In this document: positions 4,945-37,592 of the stretch, in pieces | How positions within the stretch are numbered: position 1 is the stretch's first letter | Layout: every line of letters begins with the position of its first letter | Assembly (NCBI GenBank): GCA_023374045.1 | Contig: CM041776.1 | Coordinates: 144,091,296-144,155,295, forward strand | DNA length: 64,000 bases | Direction: 5' to 3' | Source of the DNA: Limonium bicolor | Taxonomy: Eukaryota; Streptophyta; Magnoliopsida; Caryophyllales; Plumbaginaceae | Notes under the pieces: generated by a model | What the model saw: the letters and a program-made list of their open reading frames with translations, nothing else | Databases searched by the model: none | Told to the model about the DNA's origin: nothing | Position numbers and translations under genes: made by a program

Positions 4945-5180
4945 CTAGGTCAAGGTCAAATTTCTGGTCAAGGTCGAATTTCTAGTCAAGGTCAAAGCTT
5001 GGTCAAGGTCAAAGCTTGGTCAAGGTCAAAGCATGGTCAAAGTCAAAGCTTGGTCAAGGTCAAAGCTTGGTTAAGGTCAAAGCTTGGTCAAGGTCAAAGC
5101 TTGGTCAAGGTCAAAGCTTGGTCAAGGTCAACGCTTGGTCAAGGTCAACACTTGGTCAAGGTCCTGGTCAGGGTCAGGGT
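4945..5180. repeat. 17-bp tandem array (ggtcaaggtcaaagctt)
   Basis: About a dozen units of ggtcaaggtcaaagctt with few changes. The protein-like frames across it (such as repeated LVKVKAW) are by-products of the period. Confidence 0.9.
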
Positions 5181-5204
5181 AAGGTTTGGTCAAAGTTAGG
5201 GTAA

Positions 5205-5550
5205 GGTTTGGTTTTTGTGGACTTGGTTTGATTTTTGTGGACTTGGTTTGGTTTTTGTGGGCTTGGTTTGCTTTTTGTAGACTTGGTTTGGTTTTTGTGG
5301 ACTTGGTTTAGTTTCGGTGGTTTCGTTTGATTTTTGTGGGTTTAGTTTGATTTGGGCTTGGGCAGGATTGGGCTTGGTTTGGTTTTTGTGGACTTGGTTT
5401 GATTTCTGTGGGTTTGGTTTGGTTTTTTGTGGGTTTGGTTCGATTTGGGCTTGGTTTGATTTGGGCTTGGGCAGGATTGGGCTTGGTATTGGGCCGAATG
5501 GGCTTGGGCTAGGTAGTGGGCCGAATGGGCTTGGGCTAGGTAATGGGCCA
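5205..5550. repeat. Degenerate 20-bp array, then gggcttgggc repeats
   Basis: Units of acttggtttggtttttgtgg give way from about 5480 to repeats of gggccgaatgggcttgggct. The latter run resumes at 18850, after E1. This shows that E1 inserted into the array. Confidence 0.8.
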
Positions 5551-5818
5551 TGAAATACCCCAAACCTTAGTATGTTGTTTAAACACCTAAATGGGGTATA
5601 TTAAGACTAAAAAGAGTCTTAGAAACATTAGTAAACAATTTAAACCATAGAGAACACAAATAAATGCCTTAAAGTCAATTAGGGCTAAAATGTGCTCTAA
5701 GCTTGGGATGAGCTTGGTTAAGACCTAATGAACTTACCAAGACCTTATTTATATACTAATGAACATATTGAACCAATTACCAAAGAAAACCAAACTTGAA
5801 AACAAGTTAAAACACAAA

Positions 5819-5846
5819 ATGTGCTTTAAGGAGTCTTAAAGCACAT
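5819..5846. other. Conserved U3 hairpin, E1 5' LTR
   Basis: A perfect 12-bp inverted repeat (atgtgctttaag / cttaaagcacat) with loop gagt. The same hairpin is in the 3' LTR (15075-15102), in the solo LTR (24194-24221), and in E2 with a 10-bp stem (40907-40934). Confidence 0.85.
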
Positions 5847-6784
5847 TTTTGAAAAATTGTCTTGTAAAGCTTGTATTGCTTATGAAAATGATCTAAGGAG
5901 CCAATGGGAAGTGACTTAGAAGGATGCTCTTAAGGGCTTAGTAAAAGGCATATGTGTTGTTGATGTATTTGCAGGTCAAAGGCAAATATATTGTGGAAAT
6001 TGAGTGTTTATGATTTATGCATCTTAAGGGCCTAAGAGCCATGTTATTTAAGGGCCTAAGTGCCATGCAATTTAAATTATGCACTATATTGTGATGTAGT
6101 GCTAAATGTGTGAAGTTGTGTATAAGAATGTGTTTGATGGGTTTTAAGTGTTTTGGTTGTTTAATGGTGAAAGCAATGTGTTTGGTTTAGTAATGTTCTA
6201 GGAGAACCCATGTTGAAATTTAGATATATATAAGAAGCTTTAGGTGTTTAAAATGAGTTTTTAAGTTAGAAAGTGCTTAGAATGGTTAAGTGTTCTACTA
6301 GTGAAAGAAACATGCATTAAGGTATTCTAAGATGTAAAAAGGGCTTAGGCAATGTTCTAGGGGTTTAGAATGCAAAAGAATGTTTTGGGACATTTCATGA
6401 TCATGGTGAGATTGCATTTAGGACTTGTGTATTGTTGGTGAAAAGTGATGAAGTGATTTGTTGCATGGGAATCTATAAACTTGTAAAGATGTCCAAGGAG
6501 TTGTTTAGGAAGAAAAGATGCTTAGGAGATGGTGTAGTGGTGAGAAAACATTTGGGAATAGTGGGGTTATAGGTATGAAGCACCACATAGAAACTTAGTG
6601 AAAAACATTATAAGTGTAAACCTTTTTATAAGAATTTGTGTAAATGCTTGAGGAGGATTTTAGTGAATGATTTAAGGAGTTTTAAGGAGGTCTTAAGGTG
6701 TGTTTGAAGTGCCCAAATGAGGTTAGGACATGCTAGGATATATGAGGTGAAGTTTGGAGTTAAATGGGCAATGGAAAATAAGGG

Positions 6785-6985
6785 TCTGGAGCAGACCGAT
6801 CTTGCGACCGAACTTGCAAGGTCGGTCAGAGTAGAATTTTCTGGCGGTAATATGTTCTGGAATGGACCGACCATGGGACCGAGTTTGTATGGTAGGTCGT
6901 AGTGTAAATTTTCAAACCCAGTCACTGGAATGGACCGACCTTGTGTAAGGTCGGTCGGTAAGGTCGGTCGGACCAAAACTTGTAA
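6785..6985 (+). repeat. Palindromic ggtcggtc array, E1 5' LTR
   Basis: Units such as gaccgaccttg...aaggtcggtc form hairpins. There are fewer units than in the 3' LTR (17083-17490). The 220-bp difference lies between homologous units. Confidence 0.85.
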
Positions 6986-8344
6986 AAAAAAAAAGAAACA
7001 AAGAGTGGCAAATGTAGTTAACCCTAGGGGGTATAATGTAGGTAATGAAGGATTAGTTTGGGCATTAAAACATGTCATATAATCATGTTAAACATTAAGT
7101 AAACTTGGAGTTAAGTAATTAATTAACCGACATTCTTAAACATGTATAGGAGTGACCTACGGTGGAAATCAATCAAAGCAAGGACCAAGGTATGGTTTTC
7201 TTGCAGTCTGTTGCCTACCGGTTTACACCGGCTTGTGTGTTTTTGTTTTTTTTTTGTGTGTTTATAACGTTATAAGACTTAATCAAGTAATGAGTTTACA
7301 GTTGTTCATATTATTGCGATGTTGTGGTGTGACTCATTTCCCTTGTGTGTGTCTAACATGACTTACCACCTGTTGTGAATTGTTTGTTAAGTTCCACTGT
7401 TGAACTTCTAACAAGTGCTAACTGGGAAGTGAGGAATCCGGTTGTCCGGACATGCATGTAAGTTAAGAGTAGATATCTGAATCGGATTCGACTCTTATGT
7501 TGTTAAGATTGTTCTCCTTAATTTGGTGTTCGATCTCCCGCTAGCTTCCTCCAAAGCTTACCTATTCTGACTTATGATCGGTTTAGTGGGAACATGTGTT
7601 TGTGTGGTGTGTTCGGGTCACTATATCCGAACCATCTGTGACTTAAGTTACTCGTTCGAATAACAGAACGGTAATGAGTGTGTGTAACGAGCTTAACATG
7701 AGAGTGAACCATTCTCTAGGCTCTTATGTTATTTAACCTTCTTGGTTGTTATTGTGGAAAGAGTATCCACTGTGTATGTGATGTTGTGCTATGCAATAAT
7801 AATGCTATGCCACATGTTATATTATGTTATGTTATGTTTAAAATGAATGCCATGTTATCATGACAATTAGTTGCGGGTATCCCTGTAGCCGATGGGCTGC
7901 GCGTTAACCATACCAGCCAAGGGTTGCTGACCCCCTCGGGGGCTCCATATTTTTACTGCAGGATGAGGATCGAGGAAGCAGAGTGGCTGTAGGTTCTAGG
8001 CAGCAGTTGTACTTTTGGTTATTTTGGATGTTGAGCCCGGGATGCGCCTGTGCTCCCGTGGCATTATAATTTTGATTCCGTTGATACTACTATGGCGGTA
8101 TATTGGCAGTTTACAGTGAAGGCATGTAATTAAATACTCGGTATTGTATATGATGTAATTATGGTTTAGTTCTATGCTCGGGAGTCTGATCATCAGACCG
8201 GTACACTTGTATTTATTCTGCCTTGTCAACCACGTGGGTGGTTGACGGCGTTGTAGCACCGGAGCGTTTAGTTAATGTTTAGTTGTTTAATTCCGCTGCG
8301 ATTTCAATTAGTTGTGAAGTCCGTTGTAGGGGTGTTACAAAAAG

Positions 8345-8356
8345 TGGTATCAGAGC
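8345..8356 (+). other. Primer binding site (initiator Met tRNA)
   Basis: tggtatcagagc is the standard plant PBS complementary to the 3' end of initiator tRNA-Met. It lies five bases after the 5' LTR end and fixes the element's orientation. Confidence 0.95.
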
Positions 8357-8372
8357 GAAGTATCGCTCTGAT
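8349..8372 (+). other. Hairpin overlapping the PBS
   Basis: A perfect 9-bp inverted repeat, atcagagcg / cgctctgat, with loop aagtat. The first arm covers most of the PBS, so genomic RNA could fold it into a stem. The same stem occurs at the PBS of E2 (46438-46461). Confidence 0.85.
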
Positions 8373-8558
8373 GACTAGAATACCGAGCTTAGGAAAATAC
8401 CGAGTTAGGAAACCTAACTACAGTTACCTAAGTGAGCAGATATGGAAAGGTTAACCACTAACCAAGTGTGGAGATACCTTGTTGTCGGGAAAACGTTTCA
8501 ACCGTTGGAACCGATAAGTGTGTAAGCATAATGCTAATAAATGTTCATGTGAATTCAG

Positions 8559-9233
8559 ATGTCAGGTAGACCGAGAGGTAGAGGCCGCGGAAGCGGTACT
8601 GGAGATACGGATGACCGGGGCGAGAATACTACGGCTCAGGTTATGGCCGAAGCTGTAGCGGCCGCCGTAGCCCAAATGGTCCCACAACTTGTAGCTGCGA
8701 TTCAGCAGGGGCAACAGCCCGAAGTTCAACCACCACCGCCACCGCCACGAGAGACCAACTGGGTCAAGGCATTGGCAGACTTGAGACCCCCGTCATTTCA
8801 TGGGGAGACCGACCCACGTAAGCTGGAGGCGTACATCTCCGAGTTGGAGACCACCTACGAGACCTTGGATGTGCCTGCTGGGGCCAAGGTCCGTCTTGCC
8901 GCTTACTACCTGAAGGGTTCGGCACAGAGTTGGTGGAAGCTTGTGAGAGAGGACCGGATGGCGGATCCTCAGTTTGGATGGAGGGAGTACACGGCACTAC
9001 TGCGAGCTAAGTACTACCCTGTGCATGTTCAAGAGGCCAAGCGCTTGGAGCTGGATAGTCAGAGGCAGGGGGACAAGGTGTCGGTTGATGAGTACTACAC
9101 TGCATTCACCGGCCTTATCCACCTATTACCGGACCTGGGATACTCGAACCGGGTGCTGGTAAACCGTTTCTACAACGGTCTCAGCCACCGTCTTCGCTAT
9201 GGGATGGGGCCAGCTGAGTATACTACCTTGCAA
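8559..9233 (+). CDS. gag: Gag, exon 1 (capsid region)
   Basis: This encodes the N-terminal and capsid part of the structural Gag protein that forms the virus-like particle. It starts at ATG 8559 with an Arg/Gly-rich stretch (residues 1-20), then an Ala-rich helix and a run of prolines (residues 55-66). A retrotransposon-gag domain follows at about residues 80-220, with the typical LKGSAQSWW and FYNGLSHRLR segments. The ATG is directly preceded by gaattcag, so a 5'-UTR splice acceptor there is possible. The frame runs nine codons' worth of bases past the proposed donor (gtaatt, 9234) into TGA at 9240-9242. Splicing to 9337 continues the Gag similarity in frame. The exon itself has no stop codon. 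Family assignment is firm; the splice is inferred. Confidence 0.85.
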
Positions 9234-9336
9234 GTAATTTGAATGGAGTGTGATGTGAATAAGTGTAATCCATAAGTGAGTATTAATGTGAGTTGTGAAT
9301 ATGTTTTGCGGGGCATGACTGACATCCTAAATTCAG
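9234..9336 (+). other. Putative spliceosomal intron 1 in gag (103 bp)
   Basis: Donor caa|gtaattt, branch-like ctgac and cctaaat, acceptor aattcag|gag. It is AT-rich, in phase 0, and contains stops in the Gag frame. Removing it restores continuous Gag-like sequence (TLQ joined to ECYHAAAKVE). The size is normal for a short plant intron. Confidence 0.65.
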
Positions 9337-9598
9337 GAGTGCTATCATGCCGCTGCTAAGGTTGAGATCACCGTCCGTCTGAGGGACGAGAAGAATGCGC
9401 ACAAGCGCAAGGCCACGAGCGAGGGCCAGAGTCCGCAGGGGTACGAGGGAGGAAAGAAGAAGAAGAAACCTTATCCCTAACCCCAGAAGAGTCAGCACCA
9501 GGGTGACAAGGGCCAAGCCCAGACCACCACAGCTGAGGAGCCATTGAAGCTCACGTATGCTTATGCGGCGAAACCCCTACGCTCTTACCCACCTAAGG
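9337..9598 (+). pseudogene. gag: Gag, exon 2 (basic linker), with a nonsense codon
   Basis: In frame with exon 1 this reads a helix-like start and then a strongly basic linker with a run of lysines, as found between capsid and nucleocapsid. A TAA at 9478-9480 interrupts it. That codon is one C-to-T step from CAA, and the frame continues normally after it. The exon ends in phase 1 at 9598, before gtaatt. No catalytic role is expected. The break means this copy cannot make full Gag. Confidence 0.6.
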
Positions 9599-9678
9599 GT
9601 AATTATTTAATCATGTGTGACAAGTTGAAGTGTATGATGTTAAGTTGTGAAATAAGTATTGATTGTGTATTGTGATAG
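9599..9678 (+). other. Putative spliceosomal intron 2 in gag (80 bp)
   Basis: Donor aagg|gtaatta and acceptor gtgatag|cag, phase 1. It is AT-rich. Splicing joins the basic linker in frame to the zinc-knuckle exon. Confidence 0.55.
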
Positions 9679-10023
9679 CAGCTAGCACGGGTTCTGGACC
9701 GGAGCGCCACTACTACTGTAAGTGGTGTAACGGAGACCACCCCGGCAAGGACTGCAAGGGAAACAACGTGCAGTATCGTTACTGCGAGAAGTGGGGTCAC
9801 CGTGACTACGAGTGTTACCGGAACCCCAACAGCAGAGTCAACAAGCCCAAGGGGCAGTGGAAGGGTAAGGCCACAGCGACTATTGATGGCCCGAAGACGG
9901 CTAACCAGCCACCCACAGATCAGAGGCACACTGATTCCCAGAAGGGGAAGGGGTCGGGGTCCGGCAAGGCCGCCCTGAATGTGGTGGACCGGTCTGAGGC
10001 GCCAGGGCCCTCTTCTAGACCAG
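9679..10023 (+). CDS. gag: Gag, exon 3 (nucleocapsid zinc knuckle)
   Basis: This encodes the RNA-binding nucleocapsid part of Gag. A CX2CX3HX4C zinc knuckle (CKWCNGDHPGKDC) starts at 9717. A second knuckle follows at once (CEKWGHRDYEC), but its first cysteine is replaced by tyrosine (TAT, one G-to-A step). The rest is a basic, low-complexity tail of about 70 residues. The open frame ends at TAA 10032, just beyond a good donor, ccag|gtaccg, at 10024 in phase 1. That donor can be joined in frame either to the AlkB exon (acceptors at 10152, 10170 or 10218) or to the protease exon (acceptor at 11094). Confidence 0.75.
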
Positions 10024-11094
10024 GTACCGCCTAAACTGTTGAATGAAATAAATGATTGCATACCGCATTTCATGCATGTGTGTATTAGTGAGTCCAAGTG
10101 TACAATTATGTGAGTAAAGAGTTAAAGTATAGTGTGAAAGTCACCTAATTAGGTAATTCTAAACTTAAAGGAACCTTCAATATATGTTATCTAATCCCAC
10201 CCACACCAAACCCTGAAGAAACCACCATCAACATCACCGACTTTCCAATGGAGCTATGTCAGGTTATCCAGCCATGTATGATACTCTTAAATGGATACCT
10301 GACACCGGAAGCACAAGCCCATATCATCAGACGATGCAATGAACTTGGAGCAACACCTGGAGGTTTCTACACACCCGAATACCCGAACGGATCAAGAATG
10401 AGATTGAAGATGATGTGCATGGGTAAGGACTGGAATCCTTACACCAAGTCATATCAAGAAGTGTGAGCTGAAGACGGAGCAACTGTACCAATGATACCTG
10501 AGGAGTTCCTTGCGGTCGTTAACCACGCCGTGGGAATTGCTCAGCAAGTTGAAACAGATTCAATTCCAAGTGTTAAAGCAGATTTGTGTATTGTGAACTT
10601 CTACCCAAAAGGTGGTCGATTAGGTTTACACCAAGATAAGGACGAGTCACCCGAGTCTCTAAGTAAGGGAGTACCCGTGGTGTCTTGGTCCATTGGTGAT
10701 ACTGCAGTGTTTATATATGGCGAGCAGAAGCGTGCTGATCTTGCAAAGAAGTTAGTACTAAAATCAGGAGATGTGTTAATCATGGGTGGGCAGTCAAGGA
10801 TGCTATATCATGGCATCAGGAAGATCAAACTGAATACCGCACCGTCGGCAGTGGTCAATGCCACACACATAAAACCCGGACGTTTGAATTTGACTTTCAG
10901 ACAGTTTTAAAGCCTTGTATAATTATGTAATGTGTTAAGCCAGTGTATGTTAAGGCTGTTAAATATGTGTTAGTTATGTCAACAGTGTAAACCAACGAAT
11001 GATGTAAGAAGAGTGTGTTAATGAATAAAGTGGAGTTGTTGAAGTATATCAACCGTGTTGTTAAACAAAACTTATTATTTTGCCAATGAATTAG
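10024..11094 (+). other. Alternative intron spanning the AlkB ORF
   Basis: The phase-1 donor at 10024 (ccag|gtaccg) and the acceptor at 11094 (gaattag|gctgtg, preceded by a T-rich run) would join zinc knuckle to protease in frame and skip AlkB. A shorter splice, 10024-10152 (attag|gt), joins zinc knuckle to AlkB in the same phase. The stretch 10911-11094 has no coding sign. Confidence 0.5.
10153..10910 (+). pseudogene. AlkB-family 2OG-Fe(II) dioxygenase ORF in retrotransposon
   Basis: AlkB enzymes use 2-oxoglutarate, O2 and Fe(II) to remove alkyl groups from nucleic-acid bases. The sequence is most like plant ALKBH1, which acts on methylated DNA or tRNA bases. From ATG 10248 the frame gives an N-terminal part (10248-10466) with GFYTPEYPNGSRMRLKMMCMG, then a TGA at 10464-10466. 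The same frame continues to 10910. In the C-terminal part, counted from Met at 10491, the iron ligands H47, D49 (HQDKDE) and H107, and the 2OG-binding RxNxTxR (R131 to R137), are all present. The TGA is one C-to-T step from CGA. The frame is open upstream to about 10153, so an in-frame Gag fusion by splicing is possible. There are no introns within the domain, which suggests capture from a spliced mRNA. The AlkB identity is firm; its function is inferred. Confidence 0.9.
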
Positions 11095-14000
11095 GCTGTG
11101 CTCTCGGAACGGGAGGTATACTGAGTGTCTGCAATGAGGCAGAAGCCGGCAAGAGCGGCACAATCCTCACCGGTACCTTTCCAGTCAATGGCGTGGACGC
11201 TTCGATCTTGTTCGACTCCGGAGCCTCTCATACATTTATTTCGCTATCCTTTGCGAAGAGGCTGGGGTTAGACGGTGATGAGATGCCAGACTTCCTAGTC
11301 ACTCTCCCGTCGAAAGAGCGGATCAGGTGTACCCGCTACCACCGAGATGTTGTTGTGCGAATCAGAGGTGAAGAGTTTCCGATCGACTTGATAGAGTTCG
11401 ACGGACTTGGTTTTGATGTGATTGTCGGGATGAACTGGTTGGAGCGGTACAAGGGCAGAATCCTGTGTGCCGAGCATCGTCTGCTTCTTCGGAGTCCATC
11501 TGGGGTTACTATATCTTACCGCTAGAGGCCTAGGGAGCCTTCGACTCAGATCATCACCGCCATGGCTATGTGTCGTGAACTATGACGAGGGAGTGATGTA
11601 TACCTCTGCTATGTCCAGGACATAGAGAGAGACCCAGAGTTTAGTTCGTATGTGCCGGTAGTGTCGGAGTTTCCTGATGTATTTCCTAAGGAACTGTCGG
11701 GCATGCCGCCAGCACGGGAAGTAGAGTTTGAAATTGATTTGGTTCCGGGCACCAGACCAATTGCGAAGGCGCCCTATCGTATGGCTCCAGCAGAGATGAC
11801 AGAGCTCAAGGAGTAGCTGAGAGACCTACTCGACAAGGGATTTATCCGCCCTAGCGTTTCACCATGGGGAGCGCCTGTCCTCTTCGTGAAGAAGAAGGAC
11901 GGTAGTCTCCGCCTGTGTATTGACTATCGGGAACTGAATGCAGTTACGGTGAAGAACCGTTACCCTTTACCACGCATCGACGACTTATTTGATCAATTGA
12001 AGGGAGCATCAGTATTCTCCAAGATAGATCTACGATCCGGATACCATCAGATTGCCATCCGTGACAGTGATATTGAGAAGACAGCGTTCAGAACTAGATA
12101 TGGACATTATGAGTTTACGGTTATGCCGTTTGGTTTATCCAATGCACCAGCGAAGTTCATGGATTTAATGAACCGCTTGTTCCAAGATCAGTTGGACAAG
12201 TCAGTGGTAGTCTTCATCGACGATATTCTTGTGTACTCGAAATCGAGAGGTGAGCATGAAAGCCACCTGAGAAATGTGTTACAAACATTGAGGAAGAATC
12301 AGTTGTATGCTAAATTTTTGAAGTGTGAATTTTGGTTGAACCAAGTATCTTTTCTTGGTCATGTGATTTCTGAGGCCGGGATCGCTGTTGATCCGGCAAA
12401 GATTGATGCAGTGCGCACCTGGCCTTGGCCGAAGACAGTTACCGATATCAGGAGCTTCCTCGGTCTGGCAGGTTATTATAGGAGGTTTGTGAAGGACTTC
12501 TCCAGTGTCTCGAAGTCGATGACTTCCTTAATGAAGAAGGATGCACCATTCGAGTGGACAGTCGACTGTGAGAGTTCTTTCCAGAGTCTCAAGGATGCTC
12601 TGACATCTGCACCAGTCCTGACTATACCAGACGGTCCAGATGGTTTTGAGGTCTATTGCAACGCATCAGGTAGAGGTATGGGTTGTGTGTTGATGCAACA
12701 CGGGAAGGTCGTAGCTTACGCCTCCCGACAGCTGAAGAAGCATGAAGAGAACTACCCTACCCACAATTTAGAATTGGGTGCCATTGTCTTCGCACTGAAG
12801 ATATGGCGACATTATTTGTATGGGGTAAGTGTGACAATTTATTCGGACCACAAAAGCTTAAAGTACTTGTTCACTCAGAAGGAGTTGAACATGAGGCAAA
12901 GAAGGTGGGTTGAGTTTCTAAACGACTACGACATCAATCTACAGTACAAAGAGGGTAAGGCAAATGTGGTAGCTGACGCATTGAGTCGCCGAGCACACTC
13001 TCTCCATTCGCTAGTCTCTCATACTGGCTTGGTTGAAGAGGTGCGGAGTGCTCAGATGACGGATCAGTATATGATGGACATTAGACAGAAGCTTATTGAT
13101 GGCACATTCGAGGGTCAGAAGTATGACTTCAGACTCCACGATGATGACCTGATTAGGCTTAATGGCCGATTGTGTATACCGAGGAGTAGCGCTGAGTTGA
13201 AGGAGCGCATATTGAGTGAATCCCATTGTTCTACTACTTCGATTCACCCCGGAGCTTCAAAGATGTATAAGGGTATGAAAAGATATTTTTGGTGGACTGG
13301 AATGAAAAAAGATGTAAGTGATTATGTGTTGAGGTGTCTCACTTGTCAGAAGGTCAAGTTTGAGCACCGACGGCCTGGTGGTATGGTACAGCCAATGCCA
13401 GTGCCTGAGTGGAAGTTCCATGATATTTCTATGGACTTCGTAGTAGGGCTTCCGCCTACAAGGGGAGGTTTGAATATGATTTGGGTTATTGTTGACCGAC
13501 TGACCAAGGTGGCTCGATTCATACTGATGAAGGACACCTGGAAAGTGGCAAAACTGGCAGAACTCTTTGACAGAGAAATTGTAAGACATCATGGGGTACC
13601 GAAAACCATTGTATCTGACAGAGATACCAGATTCTTATCGAGGTATTGGAAGTCCACACGGGAAGCGCTTGGTACCGAGCTGAAGCTAAGTACAACGTTC
13701 CACCCGCAGACAGATGGTCAGAGTGAGCGTACCATCCAGACACTTGAGGATATGTTACGTGCTTGTGCACTTGACTTTCAGACCAGCTGGATTGATAAGT
13801 TACATCTGATCGAGTTTAGTTACAACAACAGTTACCATGCATCGATCAAGATGTCTCCCTTCCAGGCTTTGTACGGTAGACCATGCCGCACGCCATTATG
13901 CTGGGATGAGTCGAGTGAGACGGTCATTATAGGACCAGAGTATCTTGAACAAGTACAGGCAGAAGTTCGCCAGATCCGGGCTAATATGAAGGCAGCTCAG

Positions 14001-14474
14001 GATAGACAAAAGTCGTACGCAGATGTGCGCAGACGTGACCTGGAGTTCGCCGTGGGCGATCAGGTATTTTTGAGAGTATCCCCCATGAAGGGAGTATTTC
14101 GTTTTGGCCAGAAAGGCAAGTTGAGCCCAAAATATGTGGGGCCTTATGTTGTGATGGAGCGGATCGGCCCGGTAGCTTACAGACTTGATCTACCCGCCGA
14201 GCTGGGCAAGGTACATGATGTATTTCATGTGTCCCAGTTGAACAAATATATGTCTCATCCGTCTCATGTGCTTCAGCCTGAAAGGCTAACCTTAGAGCCG
14301 ACCATGCGATCTATGGAGACTCCGGTACGGATTCTGGATACTAAGACTCGAGACACTCGCCATAAGTCTGTGAGACTGGTGAAAGTTCTTTGGTCTAACC
14401 AGGACGTTGAGGAGGCCACTTGGGAGCTGGAAGATAAGATGAAGGCGAAGTACCCGCCATTGTTTACTTCTTAG
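11095..14474 (+). pseudogene. pol: Pol polyprotein: protease, RT, RNase H, integrase, chromodomain
   Basis: One frame carries the whole polyprotein. The aspartic protease has LFDSGASHT with Asp at 11214. RT begins near 11700 and has FIDD (residues 110-113 counted from 11886). RNase H retains E296, D321 and D364, but its first catalytic Asp is Asn (AAC, 12660). Integrase has an HHCC zinc finger (H447, H454, C484, C487), catalytic D517, D578 and E614 (35-residue spacing) and a GPY-type C-terminal module. A chromodomain-like tail is at about residues 805-862 (VKVLW...EEATWE). Three stops break the frame: TAG 11523, TGA 11583 and TAG 11814. Each is one C-to-T step from a sense codon, and there is no frameshift. 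From 11886 to the TAG at 14472 the frame is uninterrupted. The tail resembles Tekay/Del chromoviruses. Confidence 0.95.
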
Positions 14475-14794
14475 TGTTTATGTGTATAGGGTACGGGGCG
14501 TACCCCTTTTTAAGGGGGGTAGAGCCGTTTCGGTTATGTGTGTACGACGTGTATTTAAATACATCGTCTATGTTATGTTGTTATGTTACAGACCGTTGTG
14601 TCTGAATGATGTGGATGATGTTGTATGGACCGTGTGTCCAATGTTATGTATCCGATGTTATGTTGTATGGAATTTGTGTCCAATGTTATGTAAGTGTGTT
14701 GTTAATATTGTTATGGAAGTATTGTTTATATGTATTCCCGTGTTCTAACATTTAGGATATGTGGAAGTGTGAACTTTGAGGACAAAGTTCTTTT
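14475..14794 (+). other. 3' untranslated region of E1
   Basis: About 320 bp, T-rich and Tg-rich, with short imperfect repeats of tgttatgt and gtgtccaatg. The ORF in it is not supported. It ends in the hairpin gaactttg-agga-caaagttc (14771-14790). Confidence 0.6.
14489..14522 (+). other. Second polypurine tract just after pol
   Basis: A small hairpin (gggtac / gtaccc) is followed by aaggggggtag, almost a copy of the true PPT but 285 bp upstream of the LTR. E2 has the same arrangement (41924-41960). Confidence 0.6.
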
Positions 14795-14807
14795 AAGGGG
14801 GGTAGAT
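14795..14807 (+). other. Polypurine tract of E1
   Basis: aaggggggtagat directly before the 3' LTR: the plus-strand primer site. A perfect 8-bp hairpin with loop agga lies just upstream. Confidence 0.9.
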
Positions 14808-15433
14808 TGAAATACCCCAAACCTTAGTATGTTGTTTAAACACCTAAATGGGGTATATTAAGACTAAAAAGAGTCTTAGAAACATTAGTAAACAATTTAA
14901 ACCATAGAGAACACAAATAAATGCCTTAAAGTCAATTAGGGCTAAAATGTGCTCTAAGCTTGGGATGAGCTTGGTTAAGACCTAATGAACTTACCAAGAC
15001 CTTATTTATATACTAATGAACATATTAAACCAATTACCAAAGAAAACCAAGCTTGAAAACAAGTTAAAACACAAATGTGCTTTAAGGAGTCTTAAAGCAC
15101 ATTTTTGAAAAATTGTCTTGTAAAAGAGTTTTGAATGGCTAAATGTCCATCATTACTTTTTAATTAACATGTGTACTATATAGTATCACATTTGGAAGTC
15201 TATATCAATGGGAAATCAAAAATTTCACTTCTATGTGCCTTGTTTTTGTGAATAGTACTAAAATAAGCTAGTATGTAACATATGTTGTTATAAGTAATTA
15301 AATTGATCAAAAAAGATTAAAACACCCCTAAGTAACTATTGGGGGCCGGTTTTTGTAAGTGTGGTGACTCACCACTCTTGTTAACATGTTAAGTAAATAA
15401 AGAAGACTAGATAAGTTACTATTTACTTTAAGG

Positions 15434-15442
15434 TATAAATAT
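15434..15442 (+). promoter_or_regulatory. TATA box of the E1 LTR
   Basis: tataaatat about 627 bp into the LTR, followed by a CT-rich stretch typical of a plant transcription start. It lies inside the segment that the 5' LTR has lost. Confidence 0.6.
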
Positions 15443-17082
15443 CTTCTAAAAGCAAAACCAATCTTCATTCTCTCATTTCTCTTCATTTCACACGCCTCCC
15501 AAGCTCTCTTCTACCTCTTCTTCATTCTCCATTTACGGTTTGCAATAGAACACACCAAACTCCATCTTCCATTGTCATTATCTCCTAGCTCACTTAACCA
15601 AATCAAAAACAAACACCACCATTCTCTTCCTCTCATCAGGCTCTTCATTCCTATCTTCTCAAAACTTCAAGACCACCATTTCAGTTCCATGGAGTTCCAC
15701 CATTGAAGGAGCTTGAGCTTATATTTCTACATATTATTGATCTCCTTTGCTTCTAGGTAAGGAATCTCAAAGAAAAATGATGTTTCCTTCATGTTTTTAT
15801 CTTGACCGAGAATCACTCTTAATGGGGTCCTTATGTTGCTTTGTTCTAGCTTCATTTCAACCTTTCAAGGACTAGGTGGAGTCCTCTCTTGATAAATATT
15901 CAAACTCTCTTCAAGTTCTAAAGTAAAACAATTATCTTAATGCTTTTGAAACAATGTACAATCTAGGGTTTACAATGAGATGAAGCTTAAAGCTTGAATA
16001 CTCATTATGTTGTTTGTATAATGTTTAGAAGTTGACAAACAATCTAAAGCCTTGCTGATTTTGAACAAGGAAACAAGAAAGAAGTTTGTGAGGAAAAAAG
16101 GTAAATATGCTAACCTAATGTGGTTTAAACTCTTAGGAGAAATGAGCTTGTATTGCTTATGAAAATGATCTAAGGAGCCAATGGGAAGTGACTTAGAAGG
16201 ATGCTCTTAAGGGCTTAGTAAAAGGCATATGTGTTGTTGAGTGTATTTGCAGGTCAAAGGCAAATATATTGTGGAAATTCAGTGTTTATGATTTATGCAT
16301 CTTAAGGGCCTAAGAGCCATGTTATTTAATGGTCTAAGTGCCATGCAATTTAAATTATGCACTATATTGTGATGTAGTGCTAAATGTGTGAAGTTGTGTA
16401 TAAGAATGTGTTTGATGGGTTTTAAGTGTTTTTGGTTGTTTAATGGTGAAAGCAATGTGTTTTGGTTTAGTAATGTTCTAGGAGAACCCATGTTGAAATT
16501 TAGATAATATATAAGAAGCTTTAGGTGTTTAAAATGAGTTTTGGTAAGTTAGAAAGTGCTTAGAATGGTTAAGTGTTCTACTAGTGAAAGAAACATGCAT
16601 TAAGGTATTCTAAGATGTAAAAAGGGCTTAGGCAATGTTCTAGAGGGTTTAGAATGCAAAAGAATGTTTTGGGACATTTCATGATCATGGTGAGATTGCA
16701 TTTAGGACTTGTGTATTGTTGGTGAAAAGTGATGAAGTGATTTGTTGCATGGGAATCTATAAACTTGTAAAGATGTCCAAGGAGTTGTTTAGGAAGAAAA
16801 GATGCTTAGGAGATGGTGTTGTAGTGTTGAGAAAACATTTGGGAATAGTGGAGAGTTATAGGTATGAAGCACCACATAGAAACTTAGTGAAAAACATTAT
16901 AAGTGTAAACCTTTTTATAAGAATTTGTGTAAATGCTTGAGGAGGATTTTAGTGAATGATTTAAGGAGTTTTAAGGAGGTCTTAAGGTGTGTTTGAAGTG
17001 CCCAAATGAGGTTAGGACATGCTAGGATATATGAGGTGAATTTTGGAGTTAAATGGGCAATGGAAAATAAGGGTCTGGAGCA

Positions 17083-17490
17083 GACCGATCTTGCGACCGA
17101 ACATGCCAAGATCGGTCGAGCCCAGTTTACCCTGCGAGAAATGGACTCTTGAATGGACCGACCTTGGGGACCGGACTTGCAAGGTCGGTCGAGCATGGAT
17201 TTTTGGTACGGATTAAGTCTCTGGAATAGACCGACCTTGAGACCGAACTTGCCAAGATCGGTCGGGCCTGAATTTTCAAAGGGGAAAAACTCTCGGGAAT
17301 AGACCGACCTTGTGGACCGAACTTGCAAGGTCGGTCGGAGTAGAATTTTCTGGCGGTAATATGTTCTGGAATGGACCGACCATGGGACCGAGTTTGTATG
17401 GTCGGTCGTAGTGTAAATTTTCAAACCCGGAAGTCACTGGAATGGACCGACCTTGTGTAAGGTCGGTCGGTAAGGTCAGTCGGACCAAAA
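17083..17490 (+). repeat. Palindromic ggtcggtc array, E1 3' LTR
   Basis: Six or so units, each with gaccgacctt...aaggtcggtc in inverted orientation around a short gggaccggactt-like loop, separated by unlike spacers that often end in ctggaat. It is GC-rich against AT-rich surroundings. Confidence 0.9.
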
Positions 17491-18849
17491 CTTGTTAAAA
17501 AAAAGAAACAAAGAGTGGCAAATGTAGTTAACCCTAGGGGGTATAATGTAGGTAATGAAGGATTAGTTTGGGCATTAAAACATGTCATATAATCATGTTA
17601 AACATTAAGTAAACTTGGAGTTAAGTAATTAATTAACTGACATTCTTAAACATGTATAGGAGTGACCTACGGTGGAAATCAATCGAAGCAAGGACCAAGG
17701 TATGGTTTTCTTGCAGTCTGTTGCCTACCGGTTTACACCGGCTTGTGTGTTGTTGTTTTTTTTGTGTGTTTATAACGTTATAAGACTTAATCATGTAATG
17801 AGTTTACAGTTGTTCATATTATTGCGATGTTGTGGTGTGACTCATTTCCTTTGTGTGTGTCTAACATGACTTACCACCTGTTGTGAATTGTTTGTTAAGT
17901 TCCACTATTGAACTTCTAACAAGTGCTAACTGGGAAGTGAGGAATCCGGTTGTCCGGACATGTATGTAAGTTAAGAGTAGATATCTGAATCAGATTCGAC
18001 TCTTATGTTGTTAAGATTGTTCTCCTTAATTTGGCGTTCGATCTCCCGCTAGCTTCCTCCAAAGCTTACCTATTCTGACTTATGATCGGTTTTAGTGGGA
18101 ACATGTTGTGTTTATGGGTGTGTTCGGGTCACTATATCCGAACCATCTGTGACTTAAGTTACTCGTTCGAATAACAGAACGGTAATGAGTGTGTGTAACG
18201 AGCTTAACATGAGAGTGAACCATTCTCTAGGCTCTTATGTTATTTAACCTTCTTGGTTGTTATTGTGGAAAGAGTATCCACTGTGTATGTGATGTTGTGC
18301 TATGCAATAATAATGCTATGCCACAAGTTATATTATGTTATGTTATGTTTAAAATGAATGCCATGTTGACATGACAATTAGTTGCGCGTATCCCGGTAGC
18401 CGATGGGCTGCGCGTTAACCATACCAGCCAAGGGTTGCTGACCCCCTCGGGGGCTCCATATTTTTACTGCAGGATGAGGATCGAGGAAGCAGAGTGGCTG
18501 TAGGTTTTAGGCTGCAGTTGTACTTTTGGTTATTTTGGATGTTGAGCCCGGGATGCGCCTGTGCTCCCGTGGCATTATAATTTTGATTCGTTGATACTAC
18601 TATGGCGGTATATTGGCAGTTTACAGTGAAGGCATGTAATTAAATACTCGGTACTGTATATGATGTAATTATGGTTTAGTTCTATGCTCGGGAGTCTGAT
18701 CATCAGACCGGTACACTTGTATTTATTCTGCCTTGTCAACCACGTGGGTGGTTGACGGCGTTGTAGCACCGAAGCGTTTAGTTAATGTTTAGTTGTTTAA
18801 TTCCGCTGCGATTTCAATTAGTTGTGAAGTCCGTTGTAGGGGTGTTACA

Positions 18850-28675: not shown

Positions 28676-29175
28676 NNNNNNNNNNNNNNNNNNNNNNNNN
28701 NNNNNNNNNNNNNNNNNNNNNNNNNNNNNNNNNNNNNNNNNNNNNNNNNNNNNNNNNNNNNNNNNNNNNNNNNNNNNNNNNNNNNNNNNNNNNNNNNNNN
28801 NNNNNNNNNNNNNNNNNNNNNNNNNNNNNNNNNNNNNNNNNNNNNNNNNNNNNNNNNNNNNNNNNNNNNNNNNNNNNNNNNNNNNNNNNNNNNNNNNNNN
28901 NNNNNNNNNNNNNNNNNNNNNNNNNNNNNNNNNNNNNNNNNNNNNNNNNNNNNNNNNNNNNNNNNNNNNNNNNNNNNNNNNNNNNNNNNNNNNNNNNNNN
29001 NNNNNNNNNNNNNNNNNNNNNNNNNNNNNNNNNNNNNNNNNNNNNNNNNNNNNNNNNNNNNNNNNNNNNNNNNNNNNNNNNNNNNNNNNNNNNNNNNNNN
29101 NNNNNNNNNNNNNNNNNNNNNNNNNNNNNNNNNNNNNNNNNNNNNNNNNNNNNNNNNNNNNNNNNNNNNNNNNNN
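28676..29175. other. Assembly gap (500 N)
   Basis: Exactly 500 undetermined bases, so probably a fixed-size placeholder. It lies inside the ccggac array. Long ORFs of X residues across it are meaningless. Confidence 0.98.
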
Positions 29176-34200: not shown

Positions 34201-36539
34201 TATGTATTTCTATTTCATTTTTCTTCATATTATACACTTTTCTTTTATTCCCATCTATACCACACATATTATATAATGTAACATATACTTTATTTTATAT
34301 CATTTCAACTTTATAATTAATATAACCTATGGATATATGTTACCAAAATTTCAAACAGACCTTATGGGATGTCCTTATTCATTTTCCATCATTTTAACTT
34401 CTTATAATTACATATTCACCACATATTTCATAGTATGTTACATATACCATATGTTATAACATTTAAATCTTATATTAAGATATAACATATGTTTTTTTAA
34501 TTACTTTACCGAACAGGCCTTAGGTCTGTTTGGTTTATTTTCTAGCACACCATATTTTCTATATTTACGCTTTTACCACAATTATTAAAACATGTCACAT
34601 ATAGCTTATATTATATTATATTAATACTCATAATTTTATAACCTATAGTTTAGGCATCATTAAATTGCGTACATGCCCTAAGGCCATCTTAATTTATTTT
34701 CTCACCCCACACACTTTGCATATTTGCAATTTCACCCAGTTTTATAACCTATACTTTTAATATCATTAAAACCATATCTTATGCCCTTATCTTAATATAA
34801 CCTTTAATATAATTCTAAAAATTTCCAAACTTTATACATATGTTATAAACTGTTATATTTACCATATGAACACCAAATTTTCAGTAATTATGGTTTCTAC
34901 CCCATAAATTTTGTAAATTCAATATTTAGCTTATAATGTTATTATAAGTTCATAAATTAATTACTTATGTCATTAAATTTGCTCAAGGCACCTAACATGG
35001 TCTATATTGACCCATTGACTACCAGTTTGACCACAAGTTTCATGAATCTTGGTTTTGATCCAATATTTTCATAAAATTACATTTTGACCCCAAATTTTAA
35101 TAAAATTTTATAAAACTTATTATAATAGTTTTTAAGAGTGTGATTTTTGGCTATATTCTATATTTAGCCACCAAATTCATTTTAATTGCAAACTAACCCC
35201 TAAATGTTTTTGGTAAATATTTATTTAATCGTATAATTTAATTTAAACTTAATAAAACATAAAATAAGATGGCTTAAGATGTATAGCCTTATTACAACCC
35301 TTAATTCATAATTAAATTACACATAAATGTCACATTTAGCATCAAAGGCTCACGACTTTAACTATTTATACCCAAATATTTTCTAAAATTATATTCTTGC
35401 AACATATATTATTTCCTTGACTTAATAAGCCATTTATACACTAAGTAAACTCTCCAACAATGTTATATAACACTATAATACATGATTAAGTTATTTAACT
35501 CCTTATTAACTCACGGCTTTATTATATATGTAACATAATTTTATAATTTGTGTTTTAACAATTTAATTAATTTCTATGACATTATATGTCACATAAACAT
35601 TAGGTTATCTACCCAAAATGTTATAAAACATTTTAATATATAGTTTGATCATTGTAACCCCCTAATGTTCTCGATAATTATTAAATGTGTAACAAATGAC
35701 ATAAAAAACTTTATAATATACAAGGTTAGTATACTTACTTGATTTTCAAGCAAATAATTTAGCCACACTCCCTCCAAAGCTCACGGTTGTGCATATGTAT
35801 ATATTTTAATCAGTTTTTGAATATTAAACCCATATGAACACTTCATTAACACATCATTTAGGAGTAACTAGCTTACTTTGCTAGGTTTACTCTTGGATTT
35901 GACTTCTACAATTTTTGTAGAGTTCTCTCAAAGCTTCAACTGCTTGCGCCAGCATTTTATGCAAGGGAAAAACAAATGAGTTAGCCATAAGATACTAACC
36001 ACTAATTAAGGTATATTATGAACTTAATATGTCATTATTTTACCTTGATGTGTAGGGCTGGTTATAGGCTATTTTCGCCTGAATAAATGAATCCAAATAA
36101 GGTGTTAAAACACCATATAAATCAGCACACAAGACCGGTATTAACAAGGTGGGAATTAGCTAGGTTTTTACCTTGAGAAAGATGACTTCAATGGAGTCTC
36201 TAGCACCAAATGAAGCAGCACTTGGAGGGGTGAAATCTCCACTGAATTTCTACGTAAATAAAGAAGAGAATAAGCTGGAGAAGTGAAGAAAAGAAACCGG
36301 AAATGACTTAGGAGGACATAGGCTAGTTTAAGCATGTTTTTACCTTAATTACTACTTAAGGCTTTCTTCCCTTCTTCTTTGGATTTTTCAACCGAGAATC
36401 ACCTCCACTTTGAGCATCAACTCGGACTAAAGGGATGGGTGGAAATGGAAATATATTAGATCAATGGAAAGAAGAAGAGAAGAGGAGAAAAATGGTTATC
36501 TTCATGGTCTAAGATCTTATCTAGATCAAAATATGTGGT
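31287..36539 (-). mobile_element. E2 3' LTR, segment 1 (minus strand)
   Basis: Homologous over its whole length to 46645-47180, 53077-54359 and 60571-62996 of the right LTR. Strongly AT-rich, with many ttataacat-like words. No coding sequence is seen. The terminal 170 bp present in the right LTR (46471-46644) are missing here. Confidence 0.85.
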
Positions 36540-37592
36540 TGCAGAACGGAAAATGAGAGGGGTTGTAGATGACCGAGAAATCAACGACTTTGCTTGGTGG
36601 GAATAGGAATTCATGGTCATCTGCTCGACTACTTTCTGGAGGGTGCTCACTTTTGTTGCCTGCTGTGCATTGCTCTCCATGAGTTGCTCATGGCTTTTCA
36701 TCAGCTGGTCAAATTTGTTGTCACTTTCCCCTACTTGGTATAAACCTGGAGTGCCACCTCTTGATCCGCCCAAGGCCCAGTCTCTGATCTCTTCACAGAG
36801 AGACTCTATGCTATTCAGAAACTGTTTTCCTAGCTTTTTCAGAATGTCAGCCCCTAGAGAGGATAGCACCATTGTTCTGCAAGGACCGATTAAGCCTTTG
36901 AAGAACAATTGTGATACTTGTTCTTTCGTCAGACCATGGTGGGGGCAAGTAAGTAGTAGTCCTTTGAAACGGTCCCAAGTTTCACAAATGTTTTCCGACC
37001 CTGGCTGTCTAAAGTTGTAGATTTCAGCTATCATTTCCAATGTTCGGCTCGGGGGCAGGAATTTGTCGTAAAATTTGGTGGCCATTTCATCCCAAGTACC
37101 AATGGTACTTGGTGTAAGGCTGTGATACCATTTACTTGCGTTTCCCGTCAGGCTATGAGGGAATAATGACAGCCATGCGTACTGGAGTACTGCGTCGGTT
37201 GCAGTGAGACTGTTCGCATGCTGCAGAAACTTAGTGACATGCAACAGGGCTTCGTCAGGATTGGTCCCATCGAACATACCCAACTCCTTTACACATCGGA
37301 TCTGATGATATGGCTTAAGCTTCTGCCACTCGTCATATTTGGATGAAGTAAGGTGTGGAAAGATGATGGCGGGCTGTTGACCTTGGTTGGACGGCCTGTT
37401 GATATTTCGAACTGTCGCTGGTGTAGATGCCATGTCAGCTTCCGGGTTAGATTCTATCACTGTGGTGGTAATGTTTTGTTGAGTTCGTCTCTGCCTTAGG
37501 GTGCGCAGAAAGGTTCTCTCGATCTCTGGATTGTAACCAACCGTGTGATTATTAATATTTTCCGGGAGGCTGTGTGACCTGGTAAAAGGCAT
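36456..37592 (-). pseudogene. gag: Athila-type Gag, truncated and fused to flanking DNA
   Basis: The structural Gag of an Athila-lineage element. The 378-residue frame starts at ATG 37592. It has the family's typical run: FDGTNPDEALLHVTKFLQ, LFPHSLTGNASKWYHSL, TWDEMATKFYDKFLPP and the ERFK-like ETWDRFKGLL..CPHHGL segment, about residues 60-240. A Gln/Met-rich coiled-coil-like part follows to about residue 330. Intact relatives go on for several hundred residues. Here the frame runs into the 26-bp LTR remnant and then, past the element end, into E2 LTR sequence, so the last 40 or so residues are not Gag. No zinc knuckle or protease remains. The ATG lies inside the target duplication of the hAT element upstream. 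Confidence 0.9.
36540..36565 (-). repeat. 26-bp remnant of the E6 3' LTR
   Basis: Identical to 38803-38828, the end of the 5' LTR. It adjoins the target duplication directly, so it is the true element end. Confidence 0.9.

Follow-up and report, generated by a model that had tools for sequence, protein, structure and literature searches.

A Tekay-like chromovirus of Limonium bicolor with a conserved ALKBH1-class dioxygenase, probably an alternative last exon of gag-pol

A Tekay-like chromovirus of Limonium bicolor encodes an AlkB-type dioxygenase between its gag and protease genes, and codon comparisons indicate that this domain is a conserved resident of the element, held under purifying selection. 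The element lies in a stretch of 64,000 nucleotides (assembly GCA_023374045.1, CM041776.1 positions 144,091,296-144,155,295, forward strand), which we call the window, and its relatives were sought in the genome of 2.92 Gb, where four subfamilies could be distinguished: A (with the window copy), B (L001 and others), C (L009-L018) and D (L071-L074). The reading that we favour, with a probability of roughly three in four (0.77), is that an ALKBH1C/1D-class enzyme would have been captured a single time and kept as an alternative last exon inside the gag-pol intron; its carriage in the particle is a further and less certain step. This reading builds on the presence of the domain, its copy number, its common descent, the purifying selection on it, phase-matched splice sites, and genomic copies of both splice joints.

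Results

Layout of the element

The features of the window copy are as follows, LTR standing for long terminal repeat and RT for reverse transcriptase.

5551..8339, + strand: 5' LTR, 2,789 bp, TG..CA; aligns with the 3' LTR except for two long gaps of 1,008 and 220 bases
8345..8356, + strand: primer binding site TGGTATCAGAGC, read from the sequence, which we take to be of the tRNA-Met type
8559..9233, + strand: gag exon 1 with the capsid domain PF03732 (Pfam), ending in phase 0 ahead of GTAATT
9234..9336, + strand: intron 1, GT-AG; precisely missing in L077, L078 and L079, and missing at the same point in L012 and L014 of subfamily C
9337..9598, + strand: gag exon 2; in the window copy with a TAA stop at 9478-9480
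9599..9681, + strand: intron 2, GT-AG, phase 1; precisely missing in L076, L077, L078 and L079
9682..10023, + strand: gag exon 3 with the zinc knuckles, ending in phase 1 at the common donor CCAG|GTACCG
10024..10170, + strand: proximal intron, gag to AlkB, phase 1; exact joint at 12 sites of subfamily A, read in L075 and L076
10171..10910, + strand: AlkB exon, a 2-oxoglutarate-Fe(II) dioxygenase of the ALKBH1C/1D class; stop at 10908-10910, premature TGA at 10464-10466 in the window copy
10024..11094, + strand: distal intron, gag to pol, phase 1, with the AlkB exon inside; exact joint at 12 sites of subfamily A, read in L077-L080
11095..14474, + strand: pol exon with protease PF08284, RT, RNase H, integrase and a sub-threshold chromodomain match (Pfam); interrupted by stops in the window copy
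14808..18849, + strand: 3' LTR, 4,042 bp

The order gag, protease, RT, RNase H and integrase between LTRs is that of a Tekay/Del chromovirus, and a sub-threshold chromodomain match (PF00385, E 1.2e-4, 22.4 bits against a cut-off of 25.1) stands at the expected integrase C-terminus. Among the 120 matches listed of 7,993 in an RT search, RTs of named plants reached at most 72% identity and one further match 86%. The whole element (5551-18849) measures 13,299 bp, and its flanks GGCCA/GGCCG form a target duplication agreeing at 4/5 bases. Its LTRs are 1.25 kb apart in length and differ by a Kimura two-parameter (K2P) distance of 0.057, a rough figure that is inflated by LTR-internal repeats. A previous inspection of the letters, the sequence-only reading, had described a complete Tekay-type element. 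The LTRs and the domain order agree with that description, but the window copy is dead, with the TAA in gag exon 2, the TGA in AlkB, and further stops in pol between protease and RT.

Class and origin of the AlkB domain

The AlkB of the window copy lies on the same strand as gag and pol, and has the HxD motif (LHQDKD), the distal His (YHG) and the RxNxTxR motif (RLNLTFR). The sequence-only reading had reported such a domain between the Gag zinc knuckle and the protease, and Pfam, the motifs and 28/30 loci described below all agree with it. The part downstream of the premature stop alone (10491-10907) matches PF13532 with an E of 4e-36, while the full-length match (10149-10907) is 90.5% identical to an intact sister copy. 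The coding part begins at the splice acceptor at 10171, with no ATG. Across 34 full-length frames, which had been picked as unbroken, the iron ligands HxD...H and the 2-oxoglutarate motif RxNxTxR are whole in all except L048, which is without the first Arg (33/34).

The nearest proteins, by sequence and by fold, are plant ALKBH1C/1D of the rice OsALKBH1 type (PDB 5xoi/5xeg), as the ALKBH1-like class assigned by the sequence-only reading would have it. The ALKBH5/9/10 class, to which the orchid elements discussed below belong, was considered and rejected: within the 120 matches listed, the named proteins are all ALKBH1-type or unspecified AlkB-like, no ALKBH5 entry occurs among 21 PDB sequence matches, and in the fold search ALKBH5 comes only at rank 46. 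A search of viral contigs with the AlkB alignment found no relative.

A tree with host ALKBH1 proteins, which the sequence-only reading had proposed, groups the transposable-element (TE) copies as one clade beside all 41 other sequences, under midpoint rooting only and with no outgroup. In this tree, and likewise in the sets used for splice sites, NG86 ratios and AATAAA motifs, the window copy is counted twice (WIN, L047), as is another element (L045, L051). Compared with the plant ALKBH1C/1D hosts, the TE clade is separate and on a long stem, its AlkB is without the long N-terminal region of the aligned host proteins, and its coding part is free of introns. Because the TE AlkB is continuous where the exons of the host ALKBH1 gene show two or more introns to lie, capture from a spliced host mRNA is likely, as had been suggested from the absence of introns. 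The host ALKBH1 itself occurs twice on one chromosome, at C3:703305 (L049) and C3:133829173 (L050), with near-identical open frames; the pair is either a recent copy or an assembly artefact.

Copy number and selection

From a protease search, blind to AlkB, that listed 150 matches, the top 30 loci were fetched; they sample subfamily A only. AlkB lies upstream of the protease in 28 of them, the window copy included, and the other two are also without the zinc-knuckle exon. These 28 loci rule out a single freak copy, one of two outcomes that the sequence-only reading had named as fatal to its proposal, and the unspliced gag donor of A was found at 6,378 genomic places (33-base pattern, at most three mismatches; reversed control 0). 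A genome scan with PF13532 scored 150 hits, the top ones among 38,326 first candidates, which favours unbroken frames; 149 of these hits were listed without a stop. By tblastn, gag, zinc knuckle, AlkB, protease and RT follow one another in this order in A, B and C (L001-L018), the exceptions within the fetched stretches being L005, with no RT match, and L007 and L013, with no gag match. For subfamily D, the zinc-knuckle and protease flanks of AlkB were read in two of four copies.

The comparison between copies that the sequence-only reading had also proposed points to purifying selection, with a single nonsynonymous-to-synonymous rate ratio (omega) of 0.133 for 11 sequences from the four subfamilies. 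The codon set comprised 34 of the 35 full-length frames, L067 being left out for its absent start motif. By the method of Nei and Gojobori (NG86) the ratio is 0.087-0.119 for A-B and A-D pairs (two A copies), the remaining between-subfamily pairs being synonymously saturated. In the 28 protease-chosen copies, picked regardless of AlkB, the ratio of nonsynonymous to synonymous proportions (pN/pS) of AlkB is 0.181, and divergence is 0.047 in the AlkB exon versus 0.102 and 0.076 in the flanking intron parts. The nonsynonymous rate (dN) of AlkB (0.204 for A-B, 0.313 for A-C, 0.322 for B-C) is near that of protease-RT (0.148, 0.242 and 0.219, respectively, with a B copy other than that in the AlkB comparison), and AlkB would therefore be constrained almost as tightly as the replication enzymes. 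One-base indels are common in the copies and perhaps partly assembly error, so frameshifts were not counted as decay.

We could imagine that AlkB is instead an inert passenger or a processed pseudogene, the latter being the second fatal outcome. The premature stop of the window copy would fit, as would the AlkB frame that is unbroken in only some of the 28 protease-selected copies. However, neither the omega of 0.133, nor the pN/pS of 0.18 in AlkB-blind copies, nor an exon less diverged than the intron parts around it is what such a relic would leave, the ligand motifs are kept as described, and AlkB occupies the same place in four subfamilies. On these grounds of selection and position we give this explanation almost no credence; no search aimed at a poly(A) tail or at target duplications around AlkB was made.

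Splice sites and reading frames

In subfamily A the gag-pol frame is interrupted by three GT-AG stretches, the third of which contains AlkB; once these are joined out, gag and pol share one frame. The sequence-only reading had the gene layout right in placing AlkB between gag and protease, but it overlooked the gag introns and the phase-matched alternative 3' exon. All four subfamilies have a gag donor, an AlkB acceptor and a protease acceptor in phase 1:

Subfamily A: gag donor CCAG|GTACCG; AlkB acceptor AAAG|GAACC; protease acceptor TTAG|GCTRTG
Subfamily B: gag donor CCAG|GTATTC; AlkB acceptor GTAG|GAAGC; protease acceptor TTAG|GTTGTG
Subfamily C: gag donor ACCG|GTAAGC; AlkB acceptor ATAG|GTTGT; protease acceptor CCAG|GCCTCG
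Subfamily D: gag donor CCAG|GTACCG; AlkB acceptor TTAG|GAAGC; protease acceptor TTAG|GTTATG

The phase in B was assigned from STNPG, which resembles the end of the A exon, since the zinc-knuckle frames of L001 and L008 hold indels. For subfamily C an automated count of the pol acceptor gave 0/9, its anchor having been placed on the mutated reference L014; direct reading finds the AG in all nine C copies other than L014. Within A, the donor GT is conserved in 46/46 copies, the pol acceptor in 47/47, and the AlkB acceptor in 42/46 as aligned. The remaining four copies have indels of 1-2 bases just 5' of the acceptor, with AG|GAACC still left. Since these upstream indels spare AG|GAACC, the open frame that runs 5' of the AlkB acceptor is accidental, and it was rejected as coding sequence. 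If intron 3 is retained, a stop follows 2 to 19 codons beyond the split codon (five copies read).

It is tempting to speculate that AlkB is expressed separately, translated from an internal start or from a subgenomic RNA, as the orchid ORF2 presumably is, and with no fusion to Gag. Two observations speak for this: the first Met of the AlkB exon is an ATG at codon 27 in 16/18 intact A copies, and an AATAAA stands about 113 bases past the AlkB stop in 44/48 A fetches. However, the start is not conserved across subfamilies, lying at codon 77 in 9/9 B copies (a position within the AlkB domain), at codon 11 in 3/3 C copies, and at codon 9 or 37 in four D copies, and an AlkB begun at its own ATG was rejected on this ground. 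Moreover, residues ahead of the A start (F/Y-N/D/K-I-C) are shared among the subfamilies and also with host proteins, and the A-D values for this segment (pS 0.69, pN 0.21) indicate constraint at the protein level. Frame-shifting indels just upstream still retain AG|G, and gag-AlkB joints are present in the genome. We regard separate expression as improbable. As for the AATAAA (window 10911-11094 and equivalents), it also occurs in 4/4 D copies, in only 1/9 B and in 0/10 C, with 12-19% expected in shuffled segments; it may reflect early polyadenylation of a gag-AlkB message, and is too inconsistent to use.

Taken with the selection data, these comparisons indicate that the selected product is an ALKBH1-class enzyme whose conserved translation route is fusion behind the Gag zinc knuckles.

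Joined copies in the genome

Under the splice model, reverse-transcribed spliced RNA is expected to leave exact joints in the genome. We searched for them with short patterns, allowing mismatches and using reversed patterns as controls, all of which gave 0. The gag-AlkB joint was found at 12 places in A (three without mismatch), 11 in B and 6 in D, and the gag-pol joint, searched in A only, at 12 places (none mismatch-free, four with one mismatch). Six places of A were read individually. The proximal intron is gone from L075, which keeps introns 1 and 2, and is gone together with intron 2 from L076. L077, L078 and L079 have lost introns 1 and 2 and the entire distal intron, AlkB included, while L080 has lost the distal intron and keeps intron 2, with intron 1 partly visible. 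In L078 a single frame of 367 codons runs from capsid through zinc knuckles to protease. By these genomic copies the introns are truly removed at their GT-AG ends, as in LTR elements with regulated splicing.

Two further observations concern these copies. The gag of L014 holds an additional GT-AG insert of about 85 bases that is precisely missing from L012, an intron polymorphism within subfamily C. In addition, B copies with the gag-AlkB joint stand in rows about 11 kb apart (C1:98426690, 98437730, 98448728; C7:92180188, 92191104), as if multiplied in tandem.

Could the joined copies be DNA deletions via short repeats, the splice model being wrong? AGG is common to donor and acceptor, and a microhomology deletion between these two ends could yield the identical joint. 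Against this, L077, L078 and L079 are without three introns simultaneously, each removed at its GT-AG ends, and the ends of intron 2 share little sequence. Furthermore, the identical gag-AlkB joint recurs in three subfamilies, and the extra insert of L014 is exactly absent from L012. Deletion is, in our judgement, a very unlikely source of these copies.

Several observations weigh against a captured enzyme kept as an alternative last exon. The gag-AlkB pattern search in subfamily C gave 0, the joint being variable there so that the pattern may miss some. The joined copies of A are imperfect: in L075 one frame leads from zinc knuckle into AlkB but is stopped after 55 AlkB codons, and L076 reads through the joint for 135 codons only, its frame being broken within AlkB. 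Joined copies are few in A (24 versus 6,378 unspliced donors), and some stand in tandem and may trace to few events. L014 has lost the pol acceptor, the AlkB acceptor of A is without a strong pyrimidine tract (TAAACTTAAAG), and the segment before the first Met is weakly constrained within A (pN/pS 0.52, few sites).

Discussion

We propose that a Tekay-like chromovirus acquired its ALKBH1C/1D-class dioxygenase in a single event, with a spliced mRNA of the host as the probable source, and that AlkB would now serve as an alternative last exon lying within the gag-pol intron. One transcript would then give three products: Gag when intron 3 is kept, a Gag-AlkB fusion when the near acceptor is used, and Gag-Pol when the far acceptor is used and AlkB is skipped. 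The ratio of Gag, Gag-AlkB and Gag-Pol would be set by splicing, where other LTR elements rely on frameshifting or a short Gag message. With AlkB right behind the nucleocapsid zinc knuckles, Gag-AlkB would be expected to co-assemble with Gag into the virus-like particle, where the packaged AlkB might clear the single-stranded genomic RNA or freshly made cDNA of N-methyl marks or of alkylation lesions. That a Gag-AlkB protein exists, enters particles and works as an enzyme is our inference, as is its substrate. The fuller proposal, that packaged Gag-AlkB cleans RNA or first-strand DNA before or during reverse transcription, under the control of splicing, and that this was kept up while four or more subfamilies diverged and is probably not confined to a single plant, is put forward tentatively, at somewhat less than even odds. 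Lesions of the m1A/m3C type are substrates of the AlkB class and block reverse transcriptase; together with m6A and with 6mA in unpaired DNA they may be the substrate, and the sequence does not separate these candidates, which include the m6A, m1A and 6mA suggested by the sequence-only reading. For m6A, a role of such an enzyme on element RNA has a parallel in Arabidopsis, where ALKBH9B releases ONSEN RNA out of stress granules, according to the available part of a report (PMC12786077).

Alternatively, the enzyme could work in the nucleus, clearing 6mA from unpaired DNA or R-loops and opposing the silencing of element chromatin, like rice ALKBH1. The presence of 6mA in plants is itself debated. 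The class is that of OsALKBH1, for which the accessible text of one study reports 6mA removal in R-loops and hindrance of PRC2 (PMC10469495). However, its place on Gag, just after the zinc knuckles, points towards action in the particle or bound to RNA, and we consider a nuclear role unlikely.

An AlkB in a plant gypsy element is already known; the lineage, the enzyme class, the location and the proposed mode of expression appear to be new. The sequence-only reading, which knew of no described gypsy element with its own ALKBH1-like domain, missed that AlkB-bearing ones have been published for orchids, though of the ALKBH5/9/10 class. In the available parts of that report (PMC9289625), the Phalaenopsis element Gypsy_Pa_2799 is an Ogre/Tat element of 25 kb whose gag-pol is a single open reading frame (ORF) and whose AlkB, a 2-oxoglutarate-dependent dioxygenase (2-ODD) of the ALKBH5/9/10 class, is a separate ORF2 of 565 amino acids with demonstrated m6A demethylase activity in vitro; a screen of 121 genomes detected no such domain in plants other than Phalaenopsis. 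Like these elements, the one described here belongs to the Ty3/gypsy group of plants, encodes an AlkB-type dioxygenase that has kept its cofactor ligands, and is present in high copy number. In contrast, it is a chromovirus, its enzyme is of the ALKBH1C/1D class and sits between gag and protease, and AlkB would be an alternative exon of an intron-bearing gag-pol instead of a separate ORF2. In the open-licence literature, which was partly surveyed, we found no AlkB in a chromovirus.

Plant LTR elements are generally intron-free, with Ogre and EVADE as notable exceptions (PMC12786077). In BARE, splicing favours Gag (PMC3735527), and alternative splicing has been described for sunflower elements (PMC7730604), while sunflower Tekay elements have other extra ORFs, AlkB going unmentioned in the accessible text (PMC11728184). 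As far as these partial sources go, the Limonium element would resemble EVADE and BARE (Ty1/copia) and Ogre in that splicing decides which protein an element makes. In those elements a short Gag message is favoured or an intron removed, whereas here the choice would be between two in-frame Gag partners, one of them a captured enzyme. The predicted production of Gag, Gag-enzyme and Gag-Pol from one transcript, readable here from genomic spliced copies, is likewise something for which we found no description in the partly surveyed open-licence literature.

In flexi- and closteroviruses, AlkB forms part of RNA virus proteins. As in those viruses, a nucleic-acid demethylase class, known here from sequence, is carried by a selfish element. 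The AlkB domains of plant RNA viruses are thought to repair viral RNA, in the available text of the orchid report (PMC9289625).

If our reading is true, plant Ty3/gypsy elements would have captured an AlkB enzyme a second time, the present case differing from the orchid one in both enzyme class and element lineage. This would turn a lone curiosity into a pattern, and elements of such kind may need protection against base methylation. Moreover, so large a family makes it possible to test, with the enzyme that the element itself encodes, if methyl groups on its RNA or cDNA hold back retrotransposition.

Other features of the window

Both LTRs contain palindromic units (ACCGACC..GGTCGGTCGG-like), at 6787-6990 and 17090-17480, whose number differs between the two. 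Tandem repeats of 17 and 20 bases occupy 4951-5468, immediately upstream of the 5' LTR, and a run of 500 N covers 28676-29175. On the minus strand, an ORF of 378 amino acids (36456-37592) presumably resembles the gag of an Athila-type element.
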